From Chloroherpeton thalassium ATCC 35110 (lineage in GTDB: Bacteria > Bacteroidota > Chlorobiia > Chlorobiales > Chloroherpetonaceae), in contig NC_011026.1 in NCBI RefSeq assembly GCF_000020525.1, positions 248,001 through 312,000 on the forward strand: 64,000 bases of DNA, given 5' to 3'. The position numbers were made by a program, and so were the translations under genes. Shown here piece after piece: positions 55,834 through 64,000 of this stretch. The notes beneath the pieces are model-generated. The model had not been told where the DNA came from and did not search any database. It saw only the letters and a list, made by a program, of their open reading frames with translations. Each line of letters opens with the position of its first letter. Positions within the stretch are counted from its first letter, which is position 1.

Positions 55834-55874
55834 TCCGGGCGAATCACGCTTCTACCTGCCCGTATAACCGCCCG

Positions 55875-55908
55875 CGAAGTTTGAGATTTTTTTTCACGAA
55901 GTTTGAGA
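55875..55908. repeat. Short direct repeat near the chromosome/tail-module junction
   Basis: cgaagtttgaga occurs at 55875-55886 and again at 55897-55908, separated by a T-run. It lies between folK and the last gene of the tail module. It may mark an old insertion point, but could be chance. Confidence 0.35.
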
Positions 55909-55997
55909 ACTCTCTCCCCGATTCCGCCATGAGAAAGGAAACAACGCTAAAGAATTATGTCGCCTGCGGGAAGTATAAGCCTGAATACCATAAAAAG

Positions 55998-56243
55998 CTA
56001 CTTCGAAGCAAACCCGGCAGGAACATCATCATGTATCGTCGCTGTTTCTGAGACATACGTCGCATGCTCGTCAAAAATCGACACGAGTCGGTTCGTGTTG
56101 GACTCGTCAATAGGCAGCTCTATACAGGAATACCCATTGCTATGCTTTTTGAGATAGTCCGCATCTTCTGCAACCATCAACGCATTCATTTCATCAACAA
56201 ACGCTTGTGCCGAATCGTCATTTTCGAATAAGACGTATTTCAT
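55998..56243 (-). CDS. Small acidic protein at the end of the tail operon
   Basis: 81 residues (MKYVLFENDDSAQAFVDEMN...), acidic, no motif recognised. It starts one base after the stop of the gp25-adhesin gene and is clearly part of that operon. Position right after the presumed receptor-binding protein would suit a fibre-assembly helper, but this is inference. Confidence 0.7.
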   Translation of the reverse strand: MKYVLFENDDSAQAFVDEMNALMVAEDADYLKKHSNGYSCIELPIDESNTNRLVSIFDEHATYVSETATIHDDVPAGFASK

Positions 56244-56244
56244 A

Positions 56245-58308
56245 TCAAATTCCGTATTTCTTTTTAAGCCATGCGGCCAAATTTTCTATCTGTTCCCAAG
56301 TGCAAAAGTGCGGGTTTAGCACAATCATTCTCTCTAAGTAAAAATAACCGTACGCTTTAACGATAATATTGTAATTTATTGAATTATGATCTTGATTATC
56401 GAGTTTAAGTACGCCGTTTATAGCAATCTTTGAATTTCCAAGACTTGTAAAATCAGCTGAATTCACCGCCCTCATCGCAGCGACATGAAAAGGACCCATC
56501 TGAGCAGCAGCTTGTGTAGTTTGACCAGTATCCGGCCTTTTGTATCTTATCCAAATCGGCGCACTGTGAGCATGAGATGTCGCCATTCCAGCCTGCAGAG
56601 CCTGGTAAGGGTCATCAGGATTTCCGGTTGTGAACAGATACTGAGCCTCGCTGAGTTTAAAATGTTTAAAAACAGCGACAACCGCGATACTCAAAGGCAC
56701 TGAAGCCCCTGAATTATAATAAGACAGTGCATATATTGATGTACCACCATAAGAAATGTAGAGCACCCAACGTCCGTTATTTTTGACAACGTACGCGTTA
56801 TTATACGTCGAAGCTTTTTCAGCGAGATGGAAATCGCTATGCACTGACTTGTAATCTCCCGCTTTATCCACAATACCGGTTGCCGTCCCCAGATTACCCG
56901 CCTTCAACGCGAAAAGTTTGTCATCGTCTCCAACACCAGAAACTGTATGCGTTTCTGTTTCATCAAAATCGACGCCTTGCACATAATCGTTTGGGTTGTA
57001 GTCTGCAAGGATTGCGGTCTCGGGGACAAAAGAGACAGGAGTGCTCTTTCTGATCAAAAACTGTATATTTTTATACACAACTTTTCCGCTCAGCGCGCTC
57101 GTTGCCTGCAAGACCAAATCATGCGCCTCCGTCTTATCGACATCATATTTTACAATCGCCGTCGCCGAATTACCAGTTGCTGGAGATGGCGACACTTCGA
57201 AAGTCGTCCGCTCCGCGTCGATTGGCGTGGCAGAAAACTCATAAGCGGTAAAATCGATAGCGGATTCGCGGACCAGGTCGAGCTGAAGCGACTTTATCAC
57301 ACTATTATCCATTTCAATTTTGCCGTAGTCATTGTATTCCTCTGAATCGATATTTATTACCAAATCAGATTCTCTAATCTGAAATGTTTTTACATCCGAC
57401 CACTCGCTTGTTGCACCGCTTGCATTTGCCCTGACTTTCGCCGAGTAATACCCAAAACCATTCGCTTCTACAAACGCCTTTGCCGCGCTGTAAAAATCTA
57501 TTTCAAGGCCGGTAGTTGTGAGTGTTGTAGAATTTTCACCCATATAAAGCATCACAGAATAAGAAATCACGCCGCTTACACTCGTCATTGCCCAATTAAG
57601 TGTTACTGAGCCCGGCCAGGCCGCTCCGTTAATAGCAAGATTTGCCGGTTTCGGAATTGAAAGTGAAAACGAAATCTCACGCCATTCGCTTACCCGCCCC
57701 TGCCATTTTCCCCGGACACGGACTCTGTAGCCAGCAGGAACAAGAGAAGCTGAATATGTATAAGACTGACTAACAAGCCCTGTCAAACTCATCAAAATAC
57801 TTCCAATTGCATCCAGGAACTGAAAATCAAACCGCTCGTTTACCCCAACCGCACCTCGCCATTTGAACGTAATCGGCTGGTCAATCGACGCGCCGCCGGT
57901 CGGGTAGGTAAATATCGGGGCGGCGTAATGAAGCTGCTCGGCCTCGATGTCCTCGCCAAGATGGTAGAGATATTCCGTATCCTCGCCCTTGAGCCGCCAC
58001 GCCACTTGCACGCTCAGCCCGGCCTCCGCCTGCTCGACCGTCACTTTGCCGACCTCAATGCGCGGCTCGTATTCGCTGAGCGCACGGGTCACTTCGCGCA
58101 CAATGTTCGTTCGCGCCTGCAAAATCGGAGCGTCGAGCCATTTGTAGATGTCCGTTCCAAAATCTGGACGAAGCGGCACCTCGCCCTTGCGCGTGGTTAA
58201 AATAATATGAATGCACTGCGACACATCGTTCGCGCCCTGCACCACATTGCCGTAATCGCCCAATTTGCGCGACCAGTCCGTCGCCGTAATTTCGCTTAAG
58301 TTTATCAT
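56245..58308 (-). CDS. gp25/gpW baseplate wedge protein fused to a long adhesin-like region
   Basis: 687 residues. Residues about 15-110 are a gp25-like baseplate domain: DVSQCIHIILTTRKGEVPLRPDFGTDIYKWLD with the usual GE-x-x-x-x-P-x-FG. Ordinary gp25/gpW proteins stop near 110-140. Here about 550 residues follow: two fibronectin III-like segments (about 120-315; for example PITFKWRG, SYRVRVRGKWQGRVSEW-type ends), a beta-rich middle and a C-terminal LamG/concanavalin-like part ending ENLAAWLKKKYGI. This resembles a receptor-binding fibre welded to the baseplate. The DNA of the gp25 part (57.9-58.3 kb) is about 60 % GC, whereas much of the C-terminal part is 25-45 %. Confidence 0.85.
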   Translation of the reverse strand: MINLSEITATDWSRKLGDYGNVVQGANDVSQCIHIILTTRKGEVPLRPDFGTDIYKWLDAPILQARTNIVREVTRALSEYEPRIEVGKVTVEQAEAGLSVQVAWRLKGEDTEYLYHLGEDIEAEQLHYAAPIFTYPTGGASIDQPITFKWRGAVGVNERFDFQFLDAIGSILMSLTGLVSQSYTYSASLVPAGYRVRVRGKWQGRVSEWREISFSLSIPKPANLAINGAAWPGSVTLNWAMTSVSGVISYSVMLYMGENSTTLTTTGLEIDFYSAAKAFVEANGFGYYSAKVRANASGATSEWSDVKTFQIRESDLVINIDSEEYNDYGKIEMDNSVIKSLQLDLVRESAIDFTAYEFSATPIDAERTTFEVSPSPATGNSATAIVKYDVDKTEAHDLVLQATSALSGKVVYKNIQFLIRKSTPVSFVPETAILADYNPNDYVQGVDFDETETHTVSGVGDDDKLFALKAGNLGTATGIVDKAGDYKSVHSDFHLAEKASTYNNAYVVKNNGRWVLYISYGGTSIYALSYYNSGASVPLSIAVVAVFKHFKLSEAQYLFTTGNPDDPYQALQAGMATSHAHSAPIWIRYKRPDTGQTTQAAAQMGPFHVAAMRAVNSADFTSLGNSKIAINGVLKLDNQDHNSINYNIIVKAYGYFYLERMIVLNPHFCTWEQIENLAAWLKKKYGI

Positions 58309-58310
58309 TT

Positions 58311-58877
58311 TTACATTTTTTGTGTTGTCATTTGAGCCGTTCCGGCGCCGAGAGAACCGACGACAGGATGTGTATGAGTATTATAAGTTTCTCTCATCTC
58401 GTTCATAGACCCATTTCCATCCGATACGTCTTCACCGGCTTCAAGATTTTTTTCGGTGGAAATATCCTTTGTGGCGCTCATTTCTCCATCGATGCTGACA
58501 TTGCCCACAATTTCCACATTGCCGATGAGTTTCACTTTGCCTGACGTGTTGAGGTTGATTTCAAGCTCGCTACCCGCCGTGTCGTATTTGACCGTTGTGC
58601 CGTCGGAGAAGACTTTCATTTCTACGCCGCTTTTTGCGTCGGCGGGAATCGTGTTCAGGTCGTTGTAAATGGCGCCGAGCACAACGCCCCATGCCAAATC
58701 GTCGGAGCAGAGGCAAACGACATGCTCGCCGATGTCGGGCATCACATAATATTTCTCCATCTTGGTTTTTCGCTGAAGCACGAAATACCAGCCCGACGTA
58801 AGATTTAACTCCGGGAACATAACCCGCGCTAGCGCTTTTTGCTCGTCTATCTCCGTTATTTTTGCAAATTTCAGCAT
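58311..58877 (-). CDS. Baseplate assembly/spike protein gpV
   Basis: 188 residues. N-terminal OB-fold (about 1-85: ALARVMFPELNLTSGWYFVL, MPDIGEHVVCLC, WGVVLGAIYN), then a beta-helix-like region of short repeats (GKVKLIGNVEIVGNVSIDGE) and a tip containing THTHPV, the H-x-H pattern that binds iron at the tip of P2-like spikes. This is the membrane-piercing needle of the tail. Its start overlaps the gpD stop by one base; the gp25 gene starts 2 bases later. Confidence 0.9.
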   Translation of the reverse strand: MLKFAKITEIDEQKALARVMFPELNLTSGWYFVLQRKTKMEKYYVMPDIGEHVVCLCSDDLAWGVVLGAIYNDLNTIPADAKSGVEMKVFSDGTTVKYDTAGSELEINLNTSGKVKLIGNVEIVGNVSIDGEMSATKDISTEKNLEAGEDVSDGNGSMNEMRETYNTHTHPVVGSLGAGTAQMTTQKM

Positions 58878-59833
58878 CAGATTTTTCTAATTTCAAGTTC
58901 CGTAACATACCCGCCACGATCAATTCGGTGGCTCACTTTTTCCGCATGATATTTTCCATTTAGCTTGCCAAAGCCTTCCAATTGCGCGTTGATGCCGGCC
59001 ACCAGCTGCTCATTGCCTGGCAACGAAATCCGCCCAGAAAGCGTGGATTTTTTCGCACCTTCCGCGGCGGCCATGGTTTGTTCAGGGCTTTCCGAGTAAC
59101 CCGTTAGGCGCTCTTTGCCTGGCATCCCATCGGTGTTCGAGCTGGTGGCTTGGTAAGTCGCGCCGGTCTGGGGATTGTATTCCGAAACTTCCGTTTCGCC
59201 ATGCGCGGCAAGCGATTGACTCGAGAGTGAGTAATCGATGGCGTCGGCGCGGCTAAGTGAAAAAACAGAATCCGACGCCTCAAGCGTCTTGATTTGATAA
59301 AACACGAGCGTTTCGCCGTTGATTTTAAACACATGTCCCGTGCGCTCGGCCAAGCGCAAGAGGTAGTGCAAATCGCTTTCGCCGTTTTGCACCGATTTTT
59401 GCACGGCCACATCGTTGATGTCGCCTACCACCGAAAGCCCATGTTTGGCGGCTATGGCACGGACAATTTTCCCAAAACATGAGTCTTGAAATGTTTTGTA
59501 ATTTCGCTGCCGCACTGCCTGTTGAAAGCCTGTTCCAATGGCTTTCAACCCAAGCCGTTCGCCGCCGCTGCCGCCGGAAAAGGTGATTTCATCAATTTCA
59601 AAGATGCCGCATCTCAGCAGTTTTTGACCTTTGCGACCCAAAAAAACACTGAGCGTTTCGCCTTTGCCTGGATACCAATCCGTTCGCCAAAGCGACTGCG
59701 AGTCCTCCAATTCAAGCTCCAATTCATCGCTTTTGCCATGCTCGTTGTCCGTGTAAGTCAGAGAGAGGAGCATGGGCGAAATGTCGGCTGTGATGTCCTT
59801 ATTTTCGTAATTGATGATAAACTCGTAGCTCAT
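58877..59833 (-). CDS. Phage tail protein gpD (late control D family)
   Basis: 318 residues of the GPD/VgrG-like hub family. Seen: an N-terminal barrel (DISPMLLSLTYTDNEHGKSDELELELED), then GLKAIGTGFQQAVRQRNYKTF, IVRAIAAKHGLSVVGDIND and DLHYLLRLAERTGHVFKING, the order of P2 gpD/gp27 hub domains. It forms the central hub that carries gpV. The start of this gene follows the 133-bp repeat array that separates it from gpX. Confidence 0.9.
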   Translation of the reverse strand: MSYEFIINYENKDITADISPMLLSLTYTDNEHGKSDELELELEDSQSLWRTDWYPGKGETLSVFLGRKGQKLLRCGIFEIDEITFSGGSGGERLGLKAIGTGFQQAVRQRNYKTFQDSCFGKIVRAIAAKHGLSVVGDINDVAVQKSVQNGESDLHYLLRLAERTGHVFKINGETLVFYQIKTLEASDSVFSLSRADAIDYSLSSQSLAAHGETEVSEYNPQTGATYQATSSNTDGMPGKERLTGYSESPEQTMAAAEGAKKSTLSGRISLPGNEQLVAGINAQLEGFGKLNGKYHAEKVSHRIDRGGYVTELEIRKI

Positions 59834-59886
59834 AGTTTGGCTAAAGTAAAATTCATAATTTGTTTATGTTATCACGAGCAAGATTT

Positions 59887-60410
59887 GCTTTCGGCTACGC
59901 TCAGGCCACAGCAAAATCAACTGTCATTCTGAGGTTTCTTAGCCGAAGAATCCAACTTCACCGGACACATGGATGCTTCACTGACTCGTTCCGAGCCATT
60001 CAGCATGACAAGACAACGGGCTTTCGGCTACGCTCAGGCCACAGCAAAATCAACTGTCATTCTGAGGCTTCTTAGCCGAAGAATCCAACTTCACCGGACA
60101 CATGGATGCTTCACTGACTCGTTCCGAGCCATTCAGCATGACAAGACAACGGGCTTTCGGCTACGCTCAGGCCACAGCAAAATCAACTGTCATTCTGAGT
60201 CTCTTGACGAAGAATCCAACTTCACCGGACACATGGATGCTTCACTGACTCGTTCCGAGCCATTCAGCATGACAAGACAACGGGCTTTCGGCTACGCTCA
60301 GGCCACAGCAAAATCAACTGTCATTCTGAGGTTTCTTAGCCGAAGAATCCAACTTCACCGGACACATGGATGCTTCACTGACTCGCCGAAGAGCCATTCA
60401 GCATGACAAG
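59887..60410. repeat. Four tandem copies of a 133-bp element with inverted-repeat core, inside the tail operon
   Basis: Copies start at 59887, 60020, 60153 and 60284 (unit lengths 133, 133, 131 and about 127). Each holds gctttcggctacgctcagg, tgtcattctgag...gaagaatcc and tcagcatgaca; tgtcattctga and tcagcatgaca are imperfect inverted repeats about 80 bases apart. Copies are nearly identical; the third has a small change (gtctcttgacgaag) and the fourth ends differently. Tandem REP/MITE-like arrays with the 'gtcattctgag..gaagaatc' wording are known from many bacteria. It fills the only long gap (616 bases) in the operon; the remainder of the gap holds nothing recognisable. Confidence 0.9.
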
Positions 60411-60449
60411 AAAAAAAAAGAGCAAACTGTCCACACGCGTGCAAATCGT

Positions 60450-60701
60450 TTATCGCCACGGCGGTAAATTTTGAGTGACCGTTGTCTCGTCGTCCTCAAC
60501 GGGCACTTTCACGCGAACGCCCGCCGGCAACAGCGGAAACGCAGGGCAAAAAACACGCAAGTCTTCCTCCGGCAAGCGCATCAACAAATTCAAGTTCGCT
60601 TTGATGATTTCGGGAAACCGTGTGGCATCGGCGTAATACGCCTCCGCGATTAAATCCCAACGGTCATTTTCTTGGGTAATATGTTCGTAGTATTCCATCA
60701 T
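60450..60701 (-). CDS. Phage tail protein gpX (LysM-like)
   Basis: 83 residues with the gpX layout: EHITQENDRWDLIAEAYYAD, IIKANLNL, LPAGVRVKVP, a LysM-like fold that helps lock the tail tube/tape-measure end. The ATG overlaps the gpU stop (ATGA). The repeat array follows its stop. Confidence 0.88.
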   Translation of the reverse strand: MMEYYEHITQENDRWDLIAEAYYADATRFPEIIKANLNLLMRLPEEDLRVFCPAFPLLPAGVRVKVPVEDDETTVTQNLPPWR

Positions 60702-61189
60702 TCCACGACTCCTAAATAAAGTTCGCTACGAGCAGGCAAACTTTGCGTCGTGCTGCTCTCCTGCGATTTTTTCTTTTTGGCCACGCTCCGCTTGGACTTT
60801 TTAACCACCGTTACACCCGACACGCCAAACTCCTTCAAGGAAACCGCCAAGTCGGCACTGCGCAAAGTGCTATCGTGCATTCGGGTAATGGTGGTGGACA
60901 GGTCAGTGATGACAAATCGGCCTTTATAAATTCCGCTGCCGAGCACGAAATCTTGCGGCGAGCCTTGCTTTTTCAATCCTCTGAGTTTTTCTATTTCTTC
61001 TTCAGGTTCGCAAAAGGCCGCATCGAAGCGAAGCTGCAAGCTGATTTCGAGCAAACTTTCGCCAACCGCTTGGCTTCTGGGTTTTCCTGAAACCACCTCA
61101 TGCTCGGCATAGCGAAACGCTTCTTTTTCCGAGTAGCCGCCAACGCTGGGCAGAAGTTCAAAAATGATGTCGCCGAATTGTGCAAACAT
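60698..61189 (-). CDS. Phage tail protein gpU
   Basis: 163 residues, P2 gpU family: FGDIIFELLPSVGGYSEKEAFRYAEHEVVSGKPRSQAVG, then LQLRFDAAFCEPEEEIEKLR and GSPQDFVLGSGIYKGRFVIT. gpU caps or completes the tail end. The C-terminal part is Lys/Ser-rich (KKSKRSVAKKKKSQE) and longer than in P2. Overlaps gpX by four bases. Confidence 0.9.
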   Translation of the reverse strand: MFAQFGDIIFELLPSVGGYSEKEAFRYAEHEVVSGKPRSQAVGESLLEISLQLRFDAAFCEPEEEIEKLRGLKKQGSPQDFVLGSGIYKGRFVITDLSTTITRMHDSTLRSADLAVSLKEFGVSGVTVVKKSKRSVAKKKKSQESSTTQSLPARSELYLGVVE

Positions 61190-61210: not shown

Positions 61211-63187
61211 TTAATACGCGAGCGCAGTCTGGCGCTGATTGGCTGAATCAACCAGCCTGACAATGTCATCTTTATGCTTTTGAAGCATGGCGCGGAAGTT
61301 ATTTCGATCGGTTTCGCTTATGGCGCCGGAGAAGTGAATCGTCGGGTTGTAGTTCACCGCAATTTGCTTTCCTTGCACCGCCGCCGTTGCTGCCGAAATT
61401 GGCGCACGATGCGGCAACTGCATTTCCTGATTCGGCGTGTGAATTTGCTCGGGTGCTATGGGCATGGCCATGCCAGTAGAGACATCAGTCGCCGATTCGG
61501 ACTGCCGAGCTGGCGGAGCAATTTGCTTGGGCTTTTTCTCTTCCTTTTTATCAATCCAGCCGAAGAAGCCTGCGAGTGCATTTAGCTTGTCGGAAATGAA
61601 ATCAACCGCACCTGATAATTGTGAGGGTAGCATGTCAACAATGCTATCCACAAACCCTTTGAAAGCATTCACATGATAGTAGAGATAAAAAAAGATTGAG
61701 GATATAAGTGCTATAATAGCAGTTACAATTACCGTCTTAGAGCTAATAGCTGCTAAAACACCTGTTATAATAATTCTCAGTCCTTGCACAACCATATTTC
61801 CCAAAAGGCTAAAAATATACGTCCCATTTGCCAGCAAAGTGATTCCGAAACGGGTTAATAAGAATGTCGCACGAGGGACAAAGCGCGTCAGAAAACCCGA
61901 AAAGATTCCGGTTATCTTTGAGATTGCATTTTGAGCTTGTGTCAGAAAACCCTGAAATAAGGGACTCTTACGAATAAGTTGAGTGGCTTGATAAAGCTTG
62001 CCAAACCCGACCACCGCTGCCGTCAAATAAATCACGCCTTTAATCATCCCGCGATTTGAACTGACAAAGTCCGTGACTGCATGCGTCATTTTGGTGAGCA
62101 TATCGATCGCCCACTTGTATTCTTCGGCGAACAGCCCGCCAATCGTTTGCGACAGCGACCTTGAGGCGTCGTCCAACTTTTTGAGCGACGTGCCCAATTC
62201 CTGCAGTTTAAGATTTGTGGCGGCGTCCAAACCTGTTTGAGCCTCAAGGCTCGATGATTCTTTCGTAAGACCCGTTTGTCCAGTTTGCGCGAGTTTCATG
62301 GCGGCTTGGCTGCCTGTCCCAAAAAGCTGGGCAAAGACCTTATCCTTTAATTCGCCATCAAGCTCCTTGAGTTCATCGAGCTGCTGCATAAAGTTATCCC
62401 AGCCAAGCGATTTGCCCTCTGCGTCCGTGAATGCTATGGGAATATCAATGCCCGCTTTGCTGAGCATCTTCTCGGCTTTTGCGACATTTGCGGCATCGTG
62501 CGAGCTTTTCAGCATTGCCGAGAGCGCCGTGCCTGCTTGCTTGTTTGCGCCTAAAACTTTGAGAACGGGCGTTAAATTATTTTGGGCTTCCAAGCCTTGC
62601 ATGCCCAAAACATCGAGCGAGAGGCTGACTTCATTAAACGCATCGGCCATGCCTTGAAAATCCTTTGTGCGGAAAAGCTTGTCTATGAAGCCGTCCATGT
62701 TTCCCGCAGCGATGCCTGTTGATTGGGAGAGTTGGGCGATTTGTTCGGCGGCCTTTTCATACGGCATGTCAAGCGCCGTCGCAAGCTTTGCCGCCGGAGC
62801 CATAAGCTTTTGGACATTCGCTTGCTGGATGCCTTTGTTCATCATGGTGGAAGCCATTTTCAGGAAATCGGCTTCCGTGCCAGCATAAACCCGAGAGAGC
62901 GATTTCGTCTCTTTTTGAATCGCGGAAAAAGTCTCTTTTATTACCTTGGGCGTGCCAGATAAGGCAATCTTCAGTTGAGTTGTCGCCTGTTGATGCGCGA
63001 CAAAGTTATCGGTTGCCGTTTTGGCATAGGTTTTCATTTTTCCGAAAACGGCATCGTTTGTCTCAGCCAGCTTTTGCAAGGCAGCGTCAAGTCCTTCAGC
63101 TTGCCTGAGCGAGTCCTTTAGCTGCTTGGTGAGTACCAAAAGTCCGTTGCCGGAGAATTGAACGTTGATGCTATAGAGTTCTGACAT
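61211..63187 (-). CDS. Tail tape-measure protein
   Basis: 658 residues. Long helical N-terminal part with Phage tape-measure repeats (TEADFLKMASTMMNKGIQQANVQKLMAPAAKL, AAEQIAQLSQSTGIAAGNMDGFID, and a VLGANKQAGTALSAM segment), a hydrophobic middle (about 400-530: TAAVVGFGKLYQ, LLTRFGITLLANGTYIF, SSKTVIVTAIIALISSIFFY) and a helical end. The hydrophobic part is more AT-rich than the flanks. It sets the tail length and probably enters the target membrane during injection. Scaled from known tails, about 650 residues suggests a tail near 100 nm. Confidence 0.9.
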   Translation of the reverse strand: MSELYSINVQFSGNGLLVLTKQLKDSLRQAEGLDAALQKLAETNDAVFGKMKTYAKTATDNFVAHQQATTQLKIALSGTPKVIKETFSAIQKETKSLSRVYAGTEADFLKMASTMMNKGIQQANVQKLMAPAAKLATALDMPYEKAAEQIAQLSQSTGIAAGNMDGFIDKLFRTKDFQGMADAFNEVSLSLDVLGMQGLEAQNNLTPVLKVLGANKQAGTALSAMLKSSHDAANVAKAEKMLSKAGIDIPIAFTDAEGKSLGWDNFMQQLDELKELDGELKDKVFAQLFGTGSQAAMKLAQTGQTGLTKESSSLEAQTGLDAATNLKLQELGTSLKKLDDASRSLSQTIGGLFAEEYKWAIDMLTKMTHAVTDFVSSNRGMIKGVIYLTAAVVGFGKLYQATQLIRKSPLFQGFLTQAQNAISKITGIFSGFLTRFVPRATFLLTRFGITLLANGTYIFSLLGNMVVQGLRIIITGVLAAISSKTVIVTAIIALISSIFFYLYYHVNAFKGFVDSIVDMLPSQLSGAVDFISDKLNALAGFFGWIDKKEEKKPKQIAPPARQSESATDVSTGMAMPIAPEQIHTPNQEMQLPHRAPISAATAAVQGKQIAVNYNPTIHFSGAISETDRNNFRAMLQKHKDDIVRLVDSANQRQTALAY

Positions 63188-63216
63188 GGTGTCGTCTAAC
63201 TTTTCTTGATTTCCGG

Positions 63217-63744
63217 TTAAGTGCCGCTTTCGGTTAAGCTGAGCGCCTGCAATTTGGTGCGGGCTGGCTTCATGTTGTTGATGAGCTTTCGAACCCGCGC
63301 GTATTCGGCATCGTCCAAAGTCTGGCCTTCGGGCGCTGTGGCCGAAACGGAAAAAACAGCCCAGTTGGTTGTGCCGCCACCGTCGTAAAGAGCGCTTCCG
63401 CTGTAGCTCATCGCCCCGTCGTAGATATTGGCGCTCGCGCCTTCCGTAATGCTCACGGCGCTATATCCGATGGCCTGCAAGGCTTGAACGATGGCAAACT
63501 TCGTTCCCTTGTAGCGATGCCAAGAAATGGCGTTGCGAAGCAGTTGGCGGCGTTCGTCGTCCGTATTGGCAATCCAGCTCCAAGTCACATTTAGTTGCCA
63601 TTCCAAAAGTCGTAGCAAAGCAGGCGTTGCCTCTTCGGTATCATAGACGAGCAACATTTCCAATTGCTCGCTTCCGAGCCGGCCTGATAAAATTTCAACG
63701 GCTTCGGCGTGAAGGTCTCTGATGGATTCCGGTACGATACTCAT
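63217..63744 (-). CDS. Baseplate tail protein gpI
   Basis: 175 residues, P2 gpI family: LLRLLEWQLNVTWSWIANTDDERRQLLRNAI then RYKGTKFAIVQALQAIGY, with the C-terminal RVRKLINNMKPARTKL. Part of the baseplate wedge. Its ATG overlaps the gpJ stop (ATGA). No fibre gene (gpH) follows, in keeping with the adhesin being fused to gp25 instead. Confidence 0.9.
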   Translation of the reverse strand: MSIVPESIRDLHAEAVEILSGRLGSEQLEMLLVYDTEEATPALLRLLEWQLNVTWSWIANTDDERRQLLRNAISWHRYKGTKFAIVQALQAIGYSAVSITEGASANIYDGAMSYSGSALYDGGGTTNWAVFSVSATAPEGQTLDDAEYARVRKLINNMKPARTKLQALSLTESGT

Positions 63745-64000
63745 AGGACGGTTACACTTGTGATGGCCAGATTGGCAAATTGAAAACGCTTGAGCGAAAT
63801 GGTTTCCACTTCTTCCTCCGCTTCATTCTTCAAATCAAGCGACACGGACACAACCCCTTCCACATCATGGATAAGGGCAATCATCTCGCTTTGAATGGCT
63901 TCTTTGGCGAACTCGGCCTTTAAACTTTCGGCATAGGCTTCCAAAACGGCCATCACTTCCGAGTTGACATCATCGCTCAAATAGCCCTCCTCGATGTCGA
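63741..64000 (-). CDS. Baseplate J protein gpJ, C-terminal part only
   Basis: The frame is open to the right edge of the window (DIEEGYLSDDVNSEV...), so only the last 86 residues are present. The ending, with an amphipathic helix (VMAVLEAYAESLKAEFAKEA), IHDVEGVVSVSLDL and a final LAITSVTVL strand, fits the C-terminus of gpJ/gp47-type baseplate proteins, and the position directly before gpI is that of P2 gene J. Confidence 0.7.
   Translation of the reverse strand, partial: DIEEGYLSDDVNSEVMAVLEAYAESLKAEFAKEAIQSEMIALIHDVEGVVSVSLDLKNEAEEEVETISLKRFQFANLAITSVTVL

Follow-up and report, generated by a model that had tools for sequence, protein, structure and literature searches.

Why does the gene for a small baseplate wedge protein of a contractile tail in Chloroherpeton thalassium run on for hundreds of codons beyond its recognizable domain, and what might the added part do? 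A compact, single-domain gp25 with gpJ encoded next is the usual arrangement in this group, although it is not strictly defining. The gene considered here departs from this format, since it encodes 687 amino acids and gpJ is located elsewhere. It lies on the minus strand at positions 56245-58308 of the window, by which we mean the whole analyzed stretch of 64,000 nucleotides. According to the original prediction, a swapped-in receptor-binding module in a P2-like phage makes each wedge its own fiber, providing six adhesins per baseplate and a simple way to change target. We favor, with moderate confidence, the hypothesis that the gene encodes an "evolved" baseplate wedge, in which gp25 carries an acquired arm with Fn3-like segments and a terminal binding part, in a Mu-like tail element that may be headless and possibly decaying.

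The gp25 domain and the integrity of the fusion

The gene is a single uninterrupted frame of 687 codons with an ATG start and no internal stops. Residues 1-111 (57976-58308, minus strand) correspond to the gp25/GPW baseplate wedge domain, also called the sheath initiator. The Pfam family GPW_gp25 matches residues 24-109 (E = 7.5e-16), with a PF04965 score of 58.1 bits against a curated cut-off of 27.2 that places the protein in the gp25 family, and PHROG_43 matches residues 19-111 (E = 9.4e-24), so that the domain predicted at about residues 15-110 is borne out. The EPR motif is kept (YEPRI), its core E81, P82 and R83 being invariant in the gp25 alignment, and the identity to gp25 proteins of Mu-like phages is 35-43%. 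In the PDB, convincing matches are limited to gp25 chains of solved structures, and several baseplate entries contain six gp25 chains each.

The extension covers residues 112-687 and is open over its 576 codons in the gp25 frame only. It is genuine coding sequence: the other five frames contain 14-41 stops across the same region, and 576 codons would stay open by chance with a probability of about 1e-15. A check for a frameshift in the fusion revealed none. An assembly or sequencing artefact that joined two genes is hardly credible: the fusion occurs in one genome only, but this genome is a single contig of 3,293,456 bases that is 99.86% complete, the frame is continuous and no breakpoint repeat was seen at the junction.

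We also considered the possibility that an internal start yields a free adhesin, beside or instead of the gp25 fusion. A GTG at codon 100 is preceded by GGAGG about 11 nt upstream, but it sits in the final strand of gp25, where the sequence is GC-rich and motifs of this type occur often, and a search near the junction turned up no Shine-Dalgarno motif in front of an ATG. We consider the synthesis of two products quite improbable.

Composition and domain content of the extension

The nucleotide composition changes where the gp25 domain ends. Residues 1-111 are encoded at 57.7% GC (GC3 72%), compared to 45.4% (GC3 44%) for residues 112-687, and the fall takes place within residues 112-159 (57832-57975, minus strand). 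The best single breakpoint, at codon 159, divides the gene into parts of 57.9% and 44.2% GC, and none of 500 codon permutations produced a step as strong. Five other genes of the element were searched for a comparable step and none was found. The composition step announced for the junction is thus confirmed, but the lines of 25-35% GC cited for it are local extremes: in 200-nt windows the extension mostly has 40-52% GC, and about 34% (33.5%) is reached only at its far 3' end. The GC content of the extension resembles that of the host.

No curated family matched residues 112-687. The region nevertheless appears to hold two tandem Fn3-like repeats, for which the support is moderate. Repeat 1, at about residues 130-217 (57658-57921, minus strand), has no Pfam match and aligns with repeat 2, at about residues 218-313 (57370-57657, minus strand), and both align with a generic Fn3-like segment of known type over the pattern P..W..GL..V..Y..VR..S.W..F. 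Residues 232-312 scored higher against an Fn3-like profile built here than all of 999 shuffled sequences, though below the Pfam cut-offs, and fn3_4 matched repeat 2 with an E-value of 0.11. PHROG_17995, which also matches large repeat proteins in the phylum, gave a weak match to residues 193-259 (E = 2.2e-4). Fn3-like segments had been proposed from the beginning, and two of them are moderately supported by the repeat alignment, the shuffles and PHROG_17995.

The third segment, residues 316-420 (57049-57363, minus strand), matches no family and is probably beta-rich. The C-terminal segment, residues 421-687 (56248-57048, minus strand), ends with ENLAAWLKKKYGI and resembles a lectin by this end pattern only; it had no match in Pfam, PHROG or NCBIfam and no solid match in the PDB. 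Its ending FYLERMIVLNPHFCTWEQIENLAAWLKKKYGI looks like the end of many LamG-like domains, and the end of the protein had been labeled "LamG-like." The label goes back to these last residues and finds no backing in the family searches, as Pfam returned no family for residues 423-687 at E-values up to 10. No fiber ORF sharing the C-terminal end pattern was identified in any of the loci examined. AlphaFold2, run without an alignment, produced no usable fold, with a pLDDT of 33.1 for the full protein and 31.5 for residues 421-687.

The fusion is rare among relatives

Searches for a homologue of the whole extension yielded nothing reliable in IMG/VR, GTDB contigs, phage records or 395 genomes of the phylum. 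A plasmid search with the whole protein as the query gave only gp25-domain matches among the best matches listed. Two weak matches to the extension were rejected; one (L028) is by appearance a cysteine-synthase-type enzyme and was ascribed to chance, and the other (L030) has only the generic Fn3-like pattern in common with the extension.

In the 138 loci whose gp25 is nearest, of which GTDB contigs supplied 58 and IMG/VR 80, the gene continues past the gp25 match for a median of 5 and a maximum of 28 residues. Likewise, no other long C-terminal gp25 fusion was found among the 395 genomes of the phylum, 105 of which had gp25 matches. All other gp25 frames longer than 300 amino acids in these genomes were upstream read-through or spurious, and the sole other open frame of more than 600 amino acids was upstream read-through before a normal gp25. 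Two apparent long gp25 genes were discarded as upstream read-through (G195) and, by appearance, a GGDEF-type regulator (G007). The suspicion that many phages carry the same long gp25 is thus at odds with 0 of 138 nearest relatives and none in the phylum sample, although these samples represent the closest relatives and one phylum, and distant gp25 families with long C-termini may exist.

The idea of a swapped-in module survives in part: the module is large, foreign-looking and probably of adhesin type, its junction with gp25 shows a break in GC content and none of the 138 relatives has it. However, no exchange was seen, as no second gp25 copy with a different C-terminus was found, and the proposed ease of retargeting is therefore unsupported.

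A Mu-like tail element without identified head genes

The fusion gene belongs to an element of about 22 kb (genome positions about 303.86-325.97 kb), which extends from window position 55860 past the right end of the window (L002, L003). An ORF of 81 amino acids (55998-56243, minus strand) begins 1 nt past the stop codon of the fusion gene. It has no convincing homologue, with one weak match (E = 0.006) in 98 genomes of the class, and to judge by its position it may encode a protein that assists the extension, as an accessory factor or a chaperone. Two 22-nt direct repeats at 55875-55918, CGAAGTTTGAGA, are probably MuA binding sites at the structural-gene end of the element, which would then include the gp25 extension as well as the 81-aa ORF. 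The matching site at the opposite end is weak, and shuffled sequences do as well; the far Mu end and a target duplication were sought and not located.

Upstream of the fusion gene, all on the minus strand, follow the genes for a gpV-type baseplate spike of 188 aa (58311-58877; Phage_base_V, E = 3.5e-4; PHROG_9992, E = 1e-13), a gpD baseplate hub of 318 aa (58877-59833; PHROG_52, E = 5e-79), the gpX and gpU tail proteins (60450-61189), a tape measure protein of 658 aa (61211-63187; PhageMin_Tail, E = 8.7e-21), the gpI wedge protein (63217-63744; Tail_P2_I, E = 1.8e-19) and gpJ (378 aa; Baseplate_J, E = 9.1e-45), whose C-terminal part occupies 63741-63998 and which runs past the window. Beyond the window, the same strand encodes gpJ, a tail assembly chaperone, the tube, the sheath, a fiber, a 172-aa tail protein, a holin and an endolysin, and, farther on, a Mor activator, a GemA-like protein, a MuB-like ATPase and a MuA-like transposase; an S24 repressor gene is divergent to the other genes of the element. 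The MuA-like (DDE_2) and MuB-like (AAA) transposition proteins, with matches to DDE_2 (E = 2.3e-7) and PHROG_296 DNA transposition (E = 3.9e-41), and Mor (E = 1.2e-10) identify the element as Mu-like, where a P2-like phage had been assumed; a phage of that type would have a P2-type integrase instead of transposition genes.

None of the element's ORFs was identified as a terminase, portal, protease or capsid gene, and the Mu capsid family (gpT) is absent from the whole genome. Phage head families gave no match in the host genome, although the silent portal search is uninformative, its controls having been silent too. A protease match at 819.6 kb in the genome (26% identity over 137 residues) is far from the element and probably represents the host ClpP. 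The PHROG labels "head closure" and "portal" on two genes of 166 and 172 aa were rejected because the genes adjoin the sheath and tail assembly genes; from this position we infer that they encode the tube and a tail completion protein of the Mu gp37 type. All four head genes are present in the nearest relative by gp25, a Chlorobiaceae phage (G043, 43-46% identity). The element is possibly a transposable tailocin or a prophage that has lost its head block.

The gene order is also unusual. The genes for gpJ and gpI sit upstream of the tape measure gene (61211-63998; L002 7718-9378) rather than after gp25, a placement upstream of tape measure, hub, spike or gp25 that is not observed in any of the 138 relatives, where gpJ or gpI comes next after gp25 in almost every locus with sufficient flanking sequence and the fibers come after gpI. 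Furthermore, tandem and dispersed repeats of 131-134 nt, encoding HSESLDEESN-like peptides, are located between several gene blocks (window 59870-60414; L002 9475-9920, 17421-17621 and 18368-18910), among them the places where gpJ and the tail assembly chaperone, and gpX and gpD, are set apart. These repeats could have mediated the rearrangement.

Such features bring us to the strongest rival explanation, namely that recombination in a defective prophage made an in-frame fusion of gp25 with what was left of a fiber or host surface protein, leaving a by-product of decay with no selected function. The head genes that were not found in the element, the Mu capsid family not found in the genome, the shuffled gene order, the host-type repeats that interrupt the element between genes, the host-like GC content of the extension and a fusion that was seen just once all fit with decay. 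Yet, the tail genes are all full length by appearance and without frameshifts, the 576-codon extension is itself open, and the element retains its two lysis genes as well as its two transposition genes, which disfavors simple decay. We regard this explanation as possible, although doubtful.

A possible second binding layer or a structural part

A separate fiber gene had been thought to be missing. It is located upstream of the sheath gene, just beyond the window (L002 12391-13020; genome 315890-316519), and encodes 209 aa with a Gp53-like C-terminus (Gp53-like_C, E = 2.2e-11; tail fiber PHROG_4209, E = 1.1e-14). An arm on gp25 is therefore at most an additional adhesin. In G043, a fiber-type protein of 290 aa with a similar N-terminus is encoded directly after gpI. 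This relative also encodes, downstream of the endolysin (L025 4963-7326), a 787-aa protein with many repeats of the type GASLxAxAxLxxGxL.

The additional part could instead be structural, such as a baseplate collar or a sheath clamp. Consistent with this, gp25 is located at the junction between sheath and baseplate (PMC10811340), Fn3-like repeats are widespread as spacers and a separate fiber is already present. On the other hand, none of the 138 relatives needs such a part, and both the length and the domain style are like those of surface adhesins, for which reasons we find a structural role unlikely.

In solved contractile tails, the bundle of the wedge is locked by gp25 (BW1), to which the first sheath ring connects by its arms, and the fibers of P2 and Mu attach to gpI (BW3; PMC10811340). 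According to the evolved wedge hypothesis, the N-terminal 110 residues would keep this usual role as BW1 and sheath initiator, and the C-terminal ~570 residues would form an acquired arm in which Fn3-like spacers lead to a terminal domain, its ligand probably being on the cell surface. As gp25 holds the wedge and the first sheath subunits at the junction, six covalent arms would project outward from there. The predicted number of six adhesins per baseplate is consistent, by analogy, with the six gp25 chains in each solved baseplate. The arms might then provide a second layer of binding besides the separate fiber that is expected on gpI. Against a role as adhesin it should be considered that gp25 holds the sheath arms, so that a large arm at this site could hinder assembly.

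The fusion probably originated by recombination, in which gpJ and gpI were moved off, leaving gp25 as the operon's last large gene, and an AT-richer module of adhesin type would have been joined to it in frame. This position is a usual place for adhesin genes.

Comparison with known tails

Elements of this arrangement are known from other phages. In the phage Vp4 of the Herelleviridae, the BW3 protein Gp119 contains predicted carbohydrate-binding folds and binds cells; it is 831 aa long compared to 341 aa in Deep-Blue (PMC11406892). As in the gp25 fusion, a conserved baseplate wedge protein has been enlarged by added domains, although in Vp4 the carrier is BW3, the domains are predicted carbohydrate-binding folds rather than Fn3-like repeats and the phage is active. 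The evolved Dit (evoDit) of lactococcal and other siphophages is likewise described as a protein of the tail-tip core that has gained binding domains, in addition to the main receptor-binding protein (PMC10688798, PMC6669499); the carrier there is a siphophage Dit, whereas it is the gp25 of a contractile tail here. If an evolved baseplate is taken to be a core tail protein with an added binding fold, the added module is present in C. thalassium and no predicted fold was obtained for it.

Two further systems relate to the position of the arm. The tail spike of phage Milano is anchored at BW1, BW3 and the sheath (PMC10811340), similar to an adhesin at the junction of gp25 (BW1) and sheath, but it is a separate trimeric protein that is partly disulfide-linked and not a covalent fusion. 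In A511, BW1 and BW4 are the N- and C-terminal domains of one protein, gp102 (PMC10811340), showing that gp25/BW1 tolerates a C-terminal fusion, although the added BW4 is small, structural and of LysM fold. The evolved baseplate is an arrangement of a known kind, and gp25 would be a new and rare carrier of it.

The element as a whole resembles a known headless Mu-type contractile tail in having a tail without head genes, and it keeps the Mu transposition genes. It also resembles the R-type tailocins, as judged here from the genes alone, in its complete set of contractile tail genes and its lysis genes without head genes, but differs from them in that MuA and MuB are kept. One could go further and imagine a transposable tailocin, a Mu-type tail element that is headless and moves on its own, with its binding specificity covalently built into the sheath initiator and ligand binding by the gp25 arm coupled directly to the switch for sheath contraction. 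We think this elaborate scenario is improbable.

Implications

If the arm of the evolved wedge binds cells, gp25 would join Dit, Tal and BW3 as core tail proteins able to carry host-binding domains. The receptor would then be contacted by the very protein to which the first sheath ring is held, which would bear on how the signal is passed to contraction. Furthermore, the headless Mu-like setting bears on how transposable phages may become tail-only particles.
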